8,179 bases of DNA, taken from assembly GCA_002791215.1 (NCBI GenBank), contig PFWQ01000015.1, positions 1-8,179 on the forward strand, written 5' to 3'. The DNA comes from a candidate division SR1 bacterium CG_4_9_14_3_um_filter_40_9 (GTDB lineage: Bacteria; Patescibacteriota; Gracilibacteria; Absconditabacterales; Absconditicoccaceae). Positions within the stretch are counted from its first letter, which is position 1. Every line of letters begins with the position of its first letter. The notes beneath the pieces were generated by a model that saw nothing but the letters and a program-made list of their open reading frames with translations, made no database searches and was not told where the DNA came from. The translations under genes were made by a program, and so were the position numbers. Below, piece by piece: positions 142 to 8,028 of the stretch.

Positions 142-1314
142 ATGAAACAATCCATCCTCAATCCAAATAACCTCCAGACCTTCGCAAAAGAGCACAAGCT
201 CCAGCCTTTTAGGGTAAAACAAATAATCCAGGAGATCTACGACAATCAGAACATCAGATTTGAGGATATGACCACCCTTTCCAAGGATTTGAGACAGCAA
301 CTCGACGAAAATTTTGAAATACTCTCCATCATCCCGGAGACCATATTGGAGAGTGAAGACAATATAAAAATCTGATTCAAAACTCATGATAACTTCACCA
401 TCGAAGCGGTAATTCTCTTCCACCGAAGCAAACATGAAAAAGAGTCCATAAAGTCGAAAGTCCATAAAGTCGAAAGTCAAAACAAATGACCTGATGACCT
501 TACGACCTTATGACCTGATAGACCCCTTAATAGGATAACATTGTGCGTCTCTTCACAAATCGGCTGCCCCGTCAATTGTGTTTTCTGCGTCACTGGCAAA
601 CTCGGAATCAAGAGAGATTTGACTCGAAATGAGATCATTTCCCAGCTTCTCTTCGCGAACAATTTCATCAAGACGAAATTCGGTAAAAAAGATGACCAAA
701 CGCTCCGAGCAGTCAGAAATGTCGTTTTTATGGGTATGGGTGAACCACTCATAAACTATCAAAACGTAAAAAAATCCATAGAAATCATGATCGCGCAAGC
801 AGGCGGATTTTCTCTAGGCAAAAGACATATTACCATCTCGACAGCAGGCATCATCCCTGGCATCGAGCAACTTATCAAGGACGACATACCAGTCAAATTG
901 GCGATTTCCCTTCATGCTCCGAATCAGAAACTCCGTGAAGAACTCATGCCGATAGCCAAAGTCTACACGCTCGACAAGCTCATGAAAACGATAGACGACT
1001 ATGTCAAAGTCTCCGACAATAGAATCTTTTATGAATATATCATGATCAAGAACAAGACAGATAAGCCTGAACTTGCAACACAACTAGCAGATCTCCTTCA
1101 CGGCAGACTCGCTCATGTAAATCTGATTCCTTACAACATGAATCCAGCCATCAAACTTGAAGAAAGCGACGAAAGAACGATCAGAGCATTCAAAGATATC
1201 CTCGAAAAGAAAGGCATCACGGTGACCATCAGAGATTCTTTGGGAAGGGATTTGAAATCTGCCTGCGGACAATTATGATACGAGAAGATTGCTAACCGTC
1301 ATTGCGAGGAGTAG
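142..1314 (+). CDS. rlmN: Dual-specificity RNA methyltransferase RlmN (UGA read as Gly)
   Basis: Radical SAM enzyme that methylates C2 of adenosine at 23S rRNA A2503 and, in well-studied members, at tRNA A37. Read with UGA as glycine (residues 78, 116, 124, 379) it gives 390 aa from ATG 142 to TAG 1312-1314. The 4Fe-4S cluster motif CX3CX2C is C142/C146/C149. The two mechanistic cysteines of the family match C135 (LCVSSQ) and C375 (ACGQL). GMGEPL and the SAM-binding core follow in normal order. The helical N-terminal domain ends near residue 98. Residues about 99-131 are an insertion encoded by short tandem repeats, where other RlmN proteins have only a short linker before the cysteine motif. 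The last residues after CGQL are encoded by a dispersed repeat that also supplies the stop. Under the standard code the gene would be two pieces with no intact enzyme. Confidence 0.95.
444..526 (+). repeat. Tandem repeats inside rlmN (16-bp x2 and 8-bp x4)
   Basis: A 16-bp unit, GTCCATAAAGTCGAAA, occurs at 444-459 and again at 460-475, followed by the start of a third copy. From 487 to 518 comes an 8-bp unit, YGACCTKA, four times in tandem, with a decayed fifth copy (TAGACCCC) to 526. Neither unit length is a multiple of three, yet the rlmN frame stays open through the block. Two of the four rlmN UGA codons lie inside the 8-bp units. The block has the look of intergenic repeat DNA that has landed in a coding region. 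Confidence 0.85.
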
Positions 1315-1350
1315 GGGCACATTGCATGTGTCTCACGACGAAGCAATCTA
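1297..1350 (+). repeat. GTCATTGCGAG-type dispersed repeat at the 3' end of rlmN
   Basis: Begins CGTCATTGCGAGGAG and ends ACGAAGCAATCTAA, the two arms typical of a dispersed bacterial repeat found in many genomes. The interior contains a CACAT/ATGTG mini-hairpin. The rlmN stop codon (1312-1314) lies inside it, so the repeat supplies the C-terminal tail. A related copy is at 6549-6585 and an inverted copy at 6490-6520. It may also help terminate or stabilise the rlmN transcript. Confidence 0.7.
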
Positions 1351-1379
1351 AATCTCCTTTTACGTCTTTTACGAATCTC

Positions 1380-2099
1380 ATGCAATTTATTCCTATCAAA
1401 ACACGCCCACTCTTGCCGCCCAAAGACAATCTTTTTGAAGTTCTGGACACCTACGTGACAGACGTTCAGGATTGAGATATTATTTTTATTACTTCCAAAA
1501 TTCTCGCCATTCATCAAGGGAAATGCATCAAAGCTACAGAAATCAACAAAAAAGACTTGGTTGAACAAGAAGCGGATAAACGGATACGCACAGATGTAAT
1601 GCCGGGAAAAGACACCTATCTCACCATCAAAAATGATATTCTGATTCCATCAGCGGGCATCGACGAAAGCAACGCAAACGGCTACTATATTCTCTGGCCG
1701 GATAATTTGCCGACATTCAGTAAAGAAATCCACGATTATATCTGTAAAAAACACCAAGTGAAAAATATAGGAATCATCATCACAGACAGCACAACCAGAC
1801 CATTGAAATGGTGAGTGGTAGGAATATGAATTTATGCCTACGGCATCCAACCACTGATAGATAAAAGAGGAGTCAAAGACATCTTTGGGAAAGCGTTGGA
1901 AATCACCCAAGTAAATGTCGTCGATGCACTTAGCGCCATGGCAGTATATCTGATGGGCGAAGCAGCAGAATGCCAGCCTATTGTCATAGGAAGAAATATT
2001 CCTTGAATAGAATATGCCGATACCTATACCTTTGAAGCGACAAAAATTCCGCCTGAGAATGATTTGTATAGACCATTGCTCAAGCCACTCATGGAATAA
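1380..2099 (+). CDS. CofE-like F420-0:gamma-glutamyl ligase family protein (UGA read as Gly)
   Basis: 239 aa from ATG 1380 to TAA 2097-2099, with UGA glycines at residues 32, 145, 150 and 209. It resembles the CofE/FbiB ligase domain along its length: a GDIIFITSKILA start-of-domain motif, AGIDESN near residue 100, an IIITDSTTRP segment, then KWGVVGIGIYAYG, and DKRG followed by a DIFGKALEIT segment. CofE adds glutamate to F420-0 with GTP. No other F420 genes are present here and CPR genomes are not known for F420 synthesis, so the substrate is probably different or unknown. The ORF that ends at 1814 under the standard code stops exactly at the TGG-TGA of the conserved W-G pair. Only 14 bases separate it from the next gene, suggesting co-transcription. 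There is no Shine-Dalgarno sequence; the leader is pyrimidine-rich. Confidence 0.85.
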
Positions 2100-3721: not shown

Positions 3722-4291
3722 CTATTTAACTAATTCACCTCGATCCCCCATTTTTAACCCCGCCGCATTCGCTTCTTCGATATCGAGATGACAATCAAGT
3801 TCGTAGGTATCTTTTGCTCTGACTTCGACATTTTCAAACACCAAACCTCTTTCTCATCAGACTTTGATGTTGATATTCTGACCACTTTCTAGTCACAGAT
3901 CCTGAGCTTCTTTGACGCTACAATGCAAATGTCTTTTGGCAACAATAGCGCCAAAAGGAAGATCCACTTCGCCTGCAGATCAGATAAGTTTGAGTCCTGG
4001 AGTGCCTTGTAAATTTCCAGAAATTCTAACCATAGGTTCTATCCCAAGCGCAAAAGTGTCGCTTATCGAAAGCTCCACTTGGGTGAATTTTCTCACGGGC
4101 ATAAGTACTCTGACATGTTCTATTTTTCCCTTAGGTCACTGAAGAATAAGTGTATCCTTCGTTGCCTTTTCTCCAGGCTGAGTAAGATCTTTGACAACCT
4201 CAAAAACATGTCATTTACCGAAAAGTTTATCAGCATCGATCTGCGATAAATGCACATGCCTATTGGAAATTCAAATCGGAATTCTCACCAT
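3722..4291 (-). CDS. pduL: PduL-type phosphate acyltransferase / phosphotransacetylase (UGA read as Gly)
   Basis: Interconverts acyl-CoA plus phosphate with acyl-phosphate plus CoA; in cytosolic roles usually acetyl-CoA to acetyl-phosphate, which acetate kinase can turn into ATP. 189 aa, starting at ATG 4289-4291 and ending at TAG 3722-3724, close to the usual size of the two-barrel PduL domain. Seven UGA glycines lie at 7, 27, 52, 104, 133, 145 and 146. The zinc-site histidine motifs are intact: SNRHVHLS (H12, H14) and AKRHLHCS (H121, H123). PVRKFTQVE, GTPG and GGERGLVF are also family motifs, the last beginning with two consecutive UGA codons. There is no N-terminal encapsulation peptide and there are no shell genes nearby, so a microcompartment role is unlikely. 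It is the last gene of the minus-strand block, 84 bases after the kinase gene. Confidence 0.93.
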
Positions 4292-5048: not shown

Positions 5049-6458
5049 TTATATATTCTTAAATTTATAAAGCTCCAAACCATTGATCATATCTGTCCTT
5101 TCGTCTTTGACGGATTCATTTGCCTGAACGATGATAATCTTATCATCAAGCGAAATATTTCATTTGAACATGATTCTAATCATCTCTTTTCCTATCCTTT
5201 TCAGATTTTCATAGTTGAAGGATTGGGAGATTTTATAGCCTCTGACTCATCGAAGCAAGTTCAAATATCTATATGTTTCATCGATTTTAGTGAAAGCGAT
5301 GACTGGCACCATCGGCGCAAGAGAGGACAGTCTTCATGTAGTATATCCATTCTCGGTAAATGACACCATAGCTCTGACATCAAGTTCTCTGGTGATCCTA
5401 TAGGCGTTGTAAATAATATAATCTCTGACTTCATAATCACTATCATCCTCGTAGAAACGATCAAGCTTGTTGTCTTCAAGTTTGAGTTCGTGTTTCTCGA
5501 GCATTTCAAACAATTCCGTCACGATTTCTAGTGGATCATCTTCTCTGATCATCGTATCAATCATATATCCATCTACGGCGAGTGAACAGAATCTCTTCAC
5601 AGCGGCCTCATTGATCAATTTATATTTTCCTGCACTTCGAGTGCCGACAAAGGTGACCATGACTGGTTTCCCCACATTCTTGGATTTTTTGATAAGTGCT
5701 CTTTCATCAATTTTTTTGGCCTTCATCGCTTCAGATATTTTATCAAAACACAAAATAATTCCATCTGATATTTCAATAATATCATCAATATTCTTCAGCG
5801 CTTCTTCCGTTTCAATCTTCGCCAAAATTTTCATTTTGTTAGCATTTTGTGAAGTAAGGAAATTTTTCATCTCCATGATATCAGACTTAGTCTTCACCAT
5901 AGAAGCGATGACCATATTCACTCCATATTCCAATCCCCAGAGGATATCTTTCTTGTCTTTTTCTGTCATAAAAGGGATTTCCACTTCATATTTATCGAAT
6001 AAGACTCTATCAAATTGGACGACTTCACCTCATTTGACGACCTCGCAATTAATGGCTTCAGCAGTGATTTCTTTCACCTTCAATACTACTCCGCTTTGTT
6101 CAAATTTGATTTTGTTGCCTTTTGGAAGATCACGCAAAAATGGCGCATCGATGAAAATTTTCTTATTATGCTCTTGAGCATATTCAGAATATTCCACGGC
6201 GATGATATTACCTTCCTTGGCTTTCACGTTCAACACATTTTTTACTCTGAGATCGAGTCCTCTCATCTCGAGCATGACAGTCTTGCTATTATCCAGCTTC
6301 ATGATAGTGTCGATGTATTTTTTATTGTTATCGTCAAATCCCTGAGAAAGCGTAATCCTGAATGCATCTACCATATTGATGATTTTGGAAAGCACCGTTT
6401 CTTTTGCCAATGTCGGACCTACACCAGCGATGATTTTTGCAAAGTGGAAATTGTTCAT
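5049..6458 (-). CDS. pyk: Divergent pyruvate kinase homologue (UGA read as Gly)
   Basis: 469 aa from ATG 6456-6458 to TAA 5049-5051, with UGA glycines at 143, 375, 404 and 433. The length and domain order are those of pyruvate kinase, which makes ATP and pyruvate from phosphoenolpyruvate. AKIIAGVGPT matches the first strand. FRITLSQG matches the RxNxSHG loop with N and H replaced. A B-domain-like stretch covers about 70-145. MTEKDKKDI (164-172) leads into the second half of the barrel. ILAKIETEEA (211-220) keeps the catalytic Lys214 and Glu216. The metal-site RGDLG motif is missing (DGIILCFDKISE instead), LDTKGPEIR has become LEMRGLDLR, and the ATQML and SGETA motifs are not recognisable. The C-terminal domain retains PVIAFT, where it ends an alternating strand pattern. 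It is therefore a true homologue, but activity is doubtful; a changed substrate or a regulatory role is possible. Confidence 0.8.
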
Positions 6459-6493: not shown

Positions 6494-6593
6494 ATTACCA
6501 CGCTTCGCTCGTAATGACGAGCATGGGTAACCAGTATAATGTGCGACTGTCATTGCGAGAAGTACAACGACGTGGCAATCTAGTCGCATTATA
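6490..6593. repeat. Inverted pair of GTCATTGCGAG-type repeats between the PilT-KH and pyk genes
   Basis: One copy reads on the minus strand (6520 to 6490: CGTCATTACGAGCGAAGCG, then TGGTAATTTGAG) and one on the plus strand (6549-6585: TGTCATTGCGAGAAG to GTGGCAATCTAG). The second is enclosed by an inverted repeat, TATAATGTGCGACT (from 6535) against AGTCGCATTATA (6582-6593), which match apart from two inserted bases. The stop codon of the PilT-KH gene (6589-6591) falls in the right arm. The structure may terminate that gene on the minus strand. Confidence 0.65.
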
Positions 6594-8028
6594 GTTTCTC
6601 AAGATCAACAATGACAAATCATTTCTTCTGGATGGTCTTAGTCATGGATTTATCTTTGATAGTGATGATAGCATTGATGTCGGCAGTGAAATACACAAGA
6701 TCTTCACCAATCATCAGACACAATACTTTACCGGCGTATTGATCTGGGAATGCAATATCTAGACGAGCATTTTTCTTGGATTCACTGATATCGGTTTTGA
6801 CATCAAGCAGTGGTAAATTTTCAAATGATTTGACGTTGATACTCATTCACACAGTCTTTTCTAAGTCACCGATACTTGCTCATGCTTTACCGATGATACG
6901 TCATTTATAGAAATCAGGGACATAGAGATCCAAGCCATTGCCCTTCACCTTGATGAAGAAATCACACGGCAACAATTGCGCAAGTTTTTTGTGAATAGCT
7001 TCTTTAGCATATTCCGAAATTGCACTTTTTCCCTTACTCGTAACGCGTCACTCGTTACTCGACCCCTCAGCTCCGCTGAGTGGCATGACGACAATCTGTT
7101 CACCGAAAGTATAAATTTCATATTCTACAGCCTTAGTCAGAAAACTTGTTACAATAATCACCGGGCGAGCAAGATCTTCTGATTCCATTCACTCTGGAAT
7201 TTTCACGGTAAGCTGTAAATTATATACTTCTTTGACTTCTCATTTGTCGATATAGATGACAGTATCCAATACCTGCGGAATAATCCCCATCTCAATGGTC
7301 CCCAGAAATCTCTGAATACTATCCACAGGTCTCGTAGCATGAATCACTCACACCAAACCGATTCCCGTCAATCTCAAATCTTTATAGAGTTCAAAATCAG
7401 AGGTATTTCTTACTTCATCATACACGGTATAGTCAGGTCTAGAAAGCAATAAGATATCTCTTACTTCATCATGCGTTCCGTAGGTGAAACTATATTGCAC
7501 GACATCATCAGATACCAAGAGATCACGTGGGGATTCGACCGTCTTGATGATATGATTGTCTCTATGGAAAAGACCGATAAGAGCCTGAGCGAATGTCGTT
7601 TTTCCGCTTCCTGGCGAGCCTGAAATAAGAATTCCTTTAGCCTTATTTCTCAGGAGATCGAAGACTTCCGGAGTCAATTTATAATCCTCTATTTCCAAAG
7701 TTTTGATAGGTTTGACGACGGTCATTTCCATCCCATCAGATAAGGGCGGATGCACGATGACGATTCTGTATGGTCCGAGCTGAAGCACCTTGGAAAGTTT
7801 CCTATCGATTTCCAAGAATCCGTCATCTCTATTGTCGATTTCTTTATAGATAGCATCTACCAAATCAGCGAATGCTTTTTTATCCAAACTTCATCATTCG
7901 ATCACTGGTTTCCAGCTTCCCGGATGTCATTTCTTTTTGAGGATTGGTCTGCCTTCCTTGATATGCAACGACATCGTCGTCTCATCAAAGAATTTGTCCA
8001 ATATAGAATTCCCAATAATTTCTTTCAT
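6589..8028 (-). CDS. PilT/VirB11-like ATPase with C-terminal KH domain, lacking a PIN domain (UGA read as Gly)
   Basis: 479 aa from ATG 8026-8028 (in-frame TAA just upstream at 8038-8040) to TAA 6589-6591, with 11 UGA glycines. Residues about 10-30 ([14 protein letters not shown]) and [13 protein letters not shown], with [10 protein letters not shown], match the region before the ATPase core of the archaeal-type PIN-PilT-KH family (COG1855-like). Walker A is GSPGSGKT at 137-144, VESPRDL follows, and [18 protein letters not shown] carries the acidic Walker B-like pair D204/E205. [20 protein letters not shown] is the conserved downstream box. The KH domain contains the GRIIGKAG loop (376-383), whose first and last glycines are UGA. 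KH implies RNA or single-stranded DNA binding. Archaeal relatives begin with a PIN nuclease domain of roughly 130 residues that is absent here. Residues about 317-331 are encoded by short repeats. The cellular role is unknown. It starts 23 bases after the stop of the preceding gene, so the two are probably co-transcribed. Confidence 0.88.
7034..7080. repeat. Tandem 7-bp repeat and hairpin inside the PilT-KH gene
   Basis: Four tandem 7-bp units (TTACTCG, TAACGCG, TCACTCG, TTACTCG) fill 7034-7061. A perfect 6-bp hairpin, CTCAGC-TCC-GCTGAG, sits at 7066-7080. The block encodes a small polar loop rich in Ser, Gly and Glu between the ATPase core and the KH domain. The unit is not a multiple of three, but the frame is kept, with one unit's TGA (minus strand) read as Gly327. 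Confidence 0.75.

Follow-up and report, generated by a model that had tools for sequence, protein, structure and literature searches.

Pyruvate kinase (EC 2.7.1.40; PF00224 and PF02887) holds its metal through the Glu of the KIE motif and the Asp of RGDLG, and its K+ site is formed by the Asn and Ser of RxNxS together with the Asp and Thr of LDT. Glycolytic enzymes that sit in RNA degradosomes are catalytically working proteins. They offer a described case of a glycolytic enzyme within a nucleic-acid machine (in the parts of PMC5289998 and PMC8152036 drawn on here). Inactive versions of glycolytic enzymes have also been predicted. According to part of their description (PMC11836677), the predicted carbohydrate-enzyme pseudoenzymes of Drosophila, Pyk-like paralogues among them, occur beside a canonical enzyme and are mostly testis-restricted insect paralogues. 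The prozyme of AdoMetDC and the dead DHS paralogue are dead paralogues under selection that regulate their own active paralogue, as set out in portions of the relevant literature.

For the bacteria and the second gene family considered here, what follows comes from parts of the cited papers. Pyruvate kinase is patchy in a survey of the CPR (PMC7304191), relatives in culture prey on other bacteria (PMC11452946), and the ATP supply of the related Vampirococcus lugosii has been argued to depend on EC 2.7.1.40 (PMC8080830). The archaeal PINA/COG1855 ATPase (PMC8775617) has ATPase and KH parts, and COG1855 has been listed among archaea-specific proteins (PMC1852104).

Here we describe a degenerate pyruvate kinase homologue (DIV) in a stretch of 8,179 nucleotides from an Absconditabacterales genome (hereafter the window). 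Compared with pyruvate kinase, DIV lacks RGDLG, ATQML, SGETA and SHG, and its conservation is inverted. It resembles the Drosophila proteins as a predicted inactive glycolytic paralogue beside a canonical one. Unlike them, it is found family-wide in bacteria, and its early-branching orthologues retain RGDLG; it also has a usual neighbour, and in some genomes no pyruvate kinase besides it was detected. With the prozyme and the dead DHS paralogue it would share the state of a dead paralogue under selection, but its likely partner is an unrelated ATPase. In contrast to the degradosome enzymes, DIV has likely given up catalysis. The neighbouring ATPase has the ATPase and KH parts in common with PINA, yet the models' N-terminal part is absent from it and its score falls below the PINA equivalog cut-off. 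We found no description of DIV in the open-access literature. Predicted glycolytic pseudoenzymes are known already; this bacterial one, with its usual ATPase neighbour, appears to be new.

Our reading, to which we give an even chance, is that DIV is a former pyruvate kinase that likely no longer turns PEP into pyruvate and serves as a non-catalytic partner of the ATPase. If true, these genomes hold a living series from a core enzyme to a pseudoenzyme in which the proposed partner preceded the loss of catalysis, and central metabolism would be linked to a nucleic-acid machine in these bacteria.

Reading frame, fold and motifs

A first-pass annotation had placed a pyruvate kinase homologue at positions that proved exact (Table 1), and the gene lies on the minus strand; a plus-strand reading is ruled out by several stops. 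The frame is uninterrupted over its full length only with genetic code 25 (TGA/UGA = Gly). With table 11 it is broken by four TGA codons, at residues 143, 375, 404 and 433. Code 25 accounts for these codons and thereby rules out a frameshift or assembly fault. A sequencing fault behind the motif loss is likewise ruled out, as the same loss occurs in dozens of genomes. Some public protein sets seem to read UGA as Trp, giving W at conserved glycines (e.g. RWDLG in P0121 and P0122).

DIV is a pyruvate kinase homologue, as that annotation had said, and it has kept the fold. The Pfam barrel match (116.2 bits, cut-off 30) and the PK_C match (57.9 bits, cut-off 28) both exceed their thresholds, while the NCBIfam pyruv_kin model TIGR01064 gives 190.9 bits, short of the 306.4 set as its equivalog cut-off. 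Claims about the active site are based on sequence alignments and secondary structure. RGDLG, LDTKGPEIR, ATQML and SGETA had been called missing or heavily changed and the RxNxSHG loop had been read as RxTxSQG; the alignments agree on all five, and they also retain the KIETEEA signature of the earlier reading in its KIE core. The register at RGD is identical in a profile-profile alignment. Of the two metal ligands, the window protein keeps the Glu and has Lys at the Asp position. The Thr of ATQML is replaced by Phe, a gap falls at the Ser of SGETA, and the four K+ site positions read T, S, E and M.

Table 1. Features of the window (positions on the whole stretch of 8,179 nucleotides)
Feature	Position	Strand	Basis or remark
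Degenerate pyruvate kinase homologue (DIV)	5049..6458	minus	469 aa, code 25
N-terminal block (residues 1-74), highly conserved among degenerate orthologues	6237..6458	minus	mean 0.90, start-to-b3 segment
C domain (PK_C; residues 337-469), highly conserved among degenerate orthologues	5052..5450	minus	PF02887 match, conservation
RITLSQG, replaces RxNxSHG	6339..6359	minus	motif alignments
LEMRGLDLR, replaces LDTKGPEIR	6246..6272	minus	motif alignments
KIE, Lys and Glu retained (KIETEE)	5811..5819	minus	motif alignments
FDKIS, replaces RGDLG; Lys at Asp position	5733..5747	minus	motif and profile-profile alignment
TFVGT, replaces ATQML	5640..5654	minus	motif alignments
DTM, remnant of SGETA with two-residue gap	5550..5558	minus	motif alignments
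PIN-less PINA-like (COG1855/PRK13764) ATPase with C-terminal KH domain	6589..8028	minus	479 aa, upstream of DIV
Walker A GSPGSGKT of ATPase, residue 137	7597..7620	minus	sequence motif
KH GxxG loop GRIIGKAG of ATPase, residue 376	6880..6903	minus	sequence motif
PduL-type phosphate propanoyltransferase	3722..4291	minus	PF06130
F420-0:gamma-glutamyl ligase family protein	1302..2099	plus	PF01996

Distribution, loss of the active site and selection

DIV orthologues occur in 46 of the 49 genomes of one Absconditabacterales family; none was found in G071 (100% complete), G162 (65%) or G168 (70%). Most names attached to close homologues point to Absconditabacterales/SR1, and one named homologue carries the label Gracilibacteria. 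Searching 353 genomes of the class with a profile of the degenerate form gave 46 places at or above 254 bits, one for each DIV-bearing genome of the family, and no orthologue in other families. The next match scored 138.4 bits, so the family border is sharp. A contig labelled as a Spirochaetia MAG (SABI01000261.1, L005) carries the first 35 residues of DIV at 83% identity and is probably a mis-binned Absconditabacterales contig.

In a tree of 105 rows, DIV orthologues are separate from the canonical pyruvate kinases of the same genomes. The latter fall among relatives from the class, except for the long canonical enzyme of G153, which groups with pyruvate kinases from outside it. This tree omits 24 DIV sequences, eight short and two long canonical rows and 12 class reference genomes (near-duplicates, fragments, size); of two long canonical G155 rows it contains one. 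A rooted tree of 63 rows takes in 13 of the 120 homologues listed and 11 outgroup rows and leaves aside the DIV of G150, G147, G145, G149, G171, G169 and G164. In it the 52 orthologue rows are monophyletic (support 100/100). Ten of them branch early and keep RGDLG, and the 42 rows without the motif form a single clade (98/98). RGDLG was lost a single time among the orthologues. A tree built after deletion of seven motif segments still requires one change for this loss (96/95), and five for that of the SH dipeptide. Long end branches lead to G065, P0163, G042, G152 and P0161, whose exact places are unsure.

Several stages of the change coexist. The family genomes with an RGDLG-keeping DIV are G050, G161, G163 and G164; all checked motifs are kept in the G161 orthologue, and ATQML is already changed in that of G050. 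Intermediates, which have an RxNxxHG loop and no RGDLG, are found in G107 and G157-G160 (one genus) and in G078.

We compared 18 active-site positions over 69 canonical, four early-branching and 42 degenerate rows (the canonical rows of G141, G065 and G144 and one DIV fragment of 107 aa are not among them). The Asp of RGDLG is present in 69/69 canonical rows and in 4/4 early-branching orthologues from the family genomes, and in 3/42 degenerate rows, 25 of which have K there. On these residue losses, pyruvate kinase activity has very probably gone from the degenerate DIV. Of the 42 degenerate rows, 38 retain the Lys of KIE and 37 its Glu; 28 have the Arg of the RxNxS loop and 37 that of LDTKGPEIR. 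As KIE and the two Arg mostly persist, the degenerate form may have a remnant ligand site; their retention is as compatible with ligand binding or other chemistry as with a plain scaffold.

Conservation along the protein is inverted relative to the ordinary pyruvate kinases tested, with the N-terminal part and the C domain above the late barrel. That is, degenerate rows score 0.90 from the start to b3, 0.814 in the C domain and 0.602 in the late barrel, and canonical rows of the same family 0.72, 0.63 and 0.81. The difference between C domain and late barrel is +0.21 [0.16, 0.26] in 27 degenerate rows, against -0.18 [-0.23, -0.14] in 16 canonical rows of the family and -0.15 in ten class relatives (27 of 47 DIV and 16 of 18 long canonical sequences entered this test, besides the ten from the class). 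Across 53 sequences, with W counted as G, 60 of the 133 C-domain residues are fully conserved.

The earlier statement that the frame is maintained is supported by the dN/dS check it had called for. Three close degenerate pairs give 0.031, 0.040 and 0.056, which indicates purifying selection and speaks against recent decay. The comparison covered 30 of the 46 genomes with DIV, and 11 pairs had dS below 1.2. Seven distant pairs (dN 0.70-0.81, ratios 0.61-0.76) were set aside with dS taken as saturated and unreliable, as was the pair G163-G164 (0.10), which keeps RGDLG. The open frame is full length in nearly all 46 loci, with a broken copy in G171. DIV thus shows the pattern of a pseudoenzyme: catalytic residues lost, fold intact, purifying selection.

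The first-pass annotation had left the choice between a pseudoenzyme and an enzyme with a new substrate. On the second option, the barrel with its KIE Lys and Glu and two Arg would act on another 2-oxo acid or enol, in the manner of HpcH/HpaI lyases, whose barrel is related. The kept K, E and R residues counted above are in its favour, and residues 169-235 give a weak, partial match to HpcH_HpaI (25.1 bits, cut-off 25). We nevertheless consider it unlikely. The Glu is missing in five degenerate rows and the Lys in four, and no new invariant acidic residue has appeared at the RGDLG Asp position. Moreover, conservation is lowest in the late barrel, which makes up a large share of the pocket. With this minimum falling in the active-site half of the barrel, we prefer the pseudoenzyme; the retained KIE and two Arg leave the new substrate as the less favoured option.

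Canonical pyruvate kinases and enolase in the family

The genome of the window (922,604 bases in 95 contigs, 88.5% complete) has two pyruvate kinase genes. The canonical one encodes a barrel-only protein of 333 aa on contig 64 (G000:C64, L001:1459-2460, minus strand) with KIE, RGDLG and SGETA present and RFNFPHY in place of the RxNxSHG loop. An enolase and matches to PPDK_N (a domain of PEP synthase/PPDK) are also present. The description of this lineage as one of very reduced carbon metabolism therefore does not hold for lower glycolysis here, and simple loss of that pathway is rejected for this genome by the enolase and the canonical enzyme.

The survey of relatives for a second, canonical gene, suggested earlier, found one in 34 of the 49 family genomes. 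Enolase occurs in 30, all of which have canonical pyruvate kinase, and the 15 genomes without the canonical enzyme are all without enolase. Four genomes (G151, G152, G154 and G065) have canonical pyruvate kinase and no detected enolase. Over the 49 genomes the two co-occur with a Fisher p of 2e-9, and DIV has no association with enolase (p 1.0), in both cases by a statistic that ignores the kinship of the genomes. Of the 15 genomes that lack canonical pyruvate kinase, 14 have DIV, which is the only match to the Pfam pyruvate kinase model in each of these 14; in ten of them (completeness 59-96%) it has the degenerate form. The remaining one, G071, is a single contig and 100% complete, and it has neither a pyruvate kinase nor an enolase match. 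Among the RGDLG-keeping genomes G050, G161, G163 and G164, no enolase and no PPDK_N match was detected; the missing enolase makes even the ancestral role of DIV less certain.

Canonical enzymes come in two lengths. A clade of about 333-366 aa without a C domain occurs in 22 family genomes, including that of the window (24 short rows, two of them fragments), and a long row of at least 458 aa in 16. In family f10 (G041, G057, G083 and G064), frames of 235-248 aa match the pyruvate kinase barrel at 3 to about 70 and then at about 178-328 of the model, with almost no DNA between the two matches. They are apparently pyruvate kinases that lack a B domain and whose length leaves no room for a C domain.

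The short canonical form brings up a second alternative, in which DIV is a regulatory subunit of the canonical enzyme and supplies an effector site in trans within a mixed enzyme. The only PK_C domain detected in the genome of the window is that of DIV, the canonical enzyme being barrel-only, and activation by a catalytically dead paralogue has been described in other systems (parts of PMC5201418 and PMC3663545). But the ten genomes with degenerate DIV and no other detected pyruvate kinase disfavour this as a general role, 16 genomes have a canonical enzyme of full length, and the gene neighbours of DIV in the locus map are not recognisably glycolytic. We judge it quite improbable.

Far less credible still is the idea that DIV works as a pyruvate kinase with substitutes for the lost ligands close by, such as the acidic residue just before the RGDLG Asp in the role of metal ligand. 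The fold is kept and the Gly position of RGDLG is D or E in 34/42 degenerate rows, as this would have it. Against it, the Thr of ATQML, the His of SHG and the Ser of SGETA, each kept in 69/69 canonical rows, are retained in 5/42, 7/42 and 2/42 degenerate rows, and in the model of DIV a helix begins at residue 238, where the RGDLG loop belongs.

Public records label five proteins as 'pyruvate kinase' (P0015, P0028, P0061, P0068 and P0081) in all of which RGDLG is absent. In energy models of this group, a check for RGDLG is advisable before a pyruvate kinase is counted.

The neighbouring ATPase and the proposed role of DIV

The gene upstream of DIV encodes an ATPase that matches the PRK13764 equivalog NF010335 with 511 bits (cut-off 340) over model positions 141-592 of 613. 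It reaches 399.8 of the 800 bits set for the PINA equivalog NF053733, matching from position 122 of 502, and it matches the structure PDB 5f4h PINc (E 2.8e-96). The first 140 positions of PRK13764, which are unmatched, we take to be the place of the PIN part in PINA. KH_1 is matched at residues 369-401 (E 3.2e-4) with 20.9 bits, slightly below the cut-off of 21.5; the orthologue at L174 lies above it with 24.5 bits. A strict GxxG motif is present in 34 of the 40 family ATPases examined, and was not found in five from genus g12 or in that of G124. The KH domain of PINA reportedly contacts the helicase Hjm. The AlphaFold2 model of the window ATPase is weak (pLDDT 66, pTM 0.44).

The ATPase was found in 46 of the 49 family genomes, and its gene was not detected in G163, G164 and G168, the first two of which keep RGDLG in DIV. 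Outside the family, strong matches were limited to G002 and G012 among 145 genomes of the class. In 39 of 46 loci it lies upstream of DIV and shares its strand; two more are cut by contig ends, and in five (G167, G152, G065, G163 and G164) the genes are not adjacent. The median gap over the 39 loci is 113 bp, with more than 550 bp in G149, G156, G107 and G159, which makes co-transcription no more than possible. In a wider map of 25 loci (nzgw385 is probably a duplicate of G112), the ATPase is followed by DIV in 18 of the 21 loci that bear DIV, and the genes downstream mostly vary. On the far side of the ATPase there are often two divergent genes, c2 and c3, hydrophobic by eye. Neither has a Pfam match or an NCBIfam match above cut-off, and c3 also has no PDB match. 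DIV is at the usual place in G065 with the ATPase elsewhere. In the complete genome G071 the ATPase is at the usual place without DIV, so it can work without it.

That such losses and separations (G071, G065) and the broken copy of G171 mark an operon bystander, the vestige of a gene that chance or a hidden element keeps where it is, can hardly be believed, given dN/dS of 0.03-0.06, full-length frames in nearly all loci and 60 fully conserved C-domain residues. A partnership between DIV and the ATPase is suggested by gene order, which by itself does not prove contact, and seems to us about evenly poised. Two RGDLG-keeping orthologues, in G161 and G050, already lie behind the ATPase, which makes moonlighting first and loss of catalysis second the likely order.

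For the preferred non-catalytic partner we propose the following course. A full-length ancestral pyruvate kinase would have become associated with the KH ATPase, and catalysis would then have been lost on one branch of the family. DIV may now be kept for a role in which its N-terminal and C-domain faces bind the ATPase. Through its retained Lys, Glu and Arg, DIV may still bind PEP or another ligand with a phosphate or carboxylate group, and it could report metabolic state to the nucleic-acid-remodelling machine. We put metabolite sensing forward tentatively, as a possibility rather than an expectation. The same tentative standing applies to the full scenario, in which a glycolytic enzyme turns stepwise into a non-catalytic, metabolite-sensing subunit of a KH ATPase, with kept-site, half-lost and fully lost forms coexisting.

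Two further genes of the window may be mentioned. A PduL-type phosphate propanoyltransferase is encoded two genes downstream of DIV; it is not beside DIV in the relatives' loci examined, which have short flanks. The plus strand carries a gene for an F420-0:gamma-glutamyl ligase family protein, in what is a small genome.
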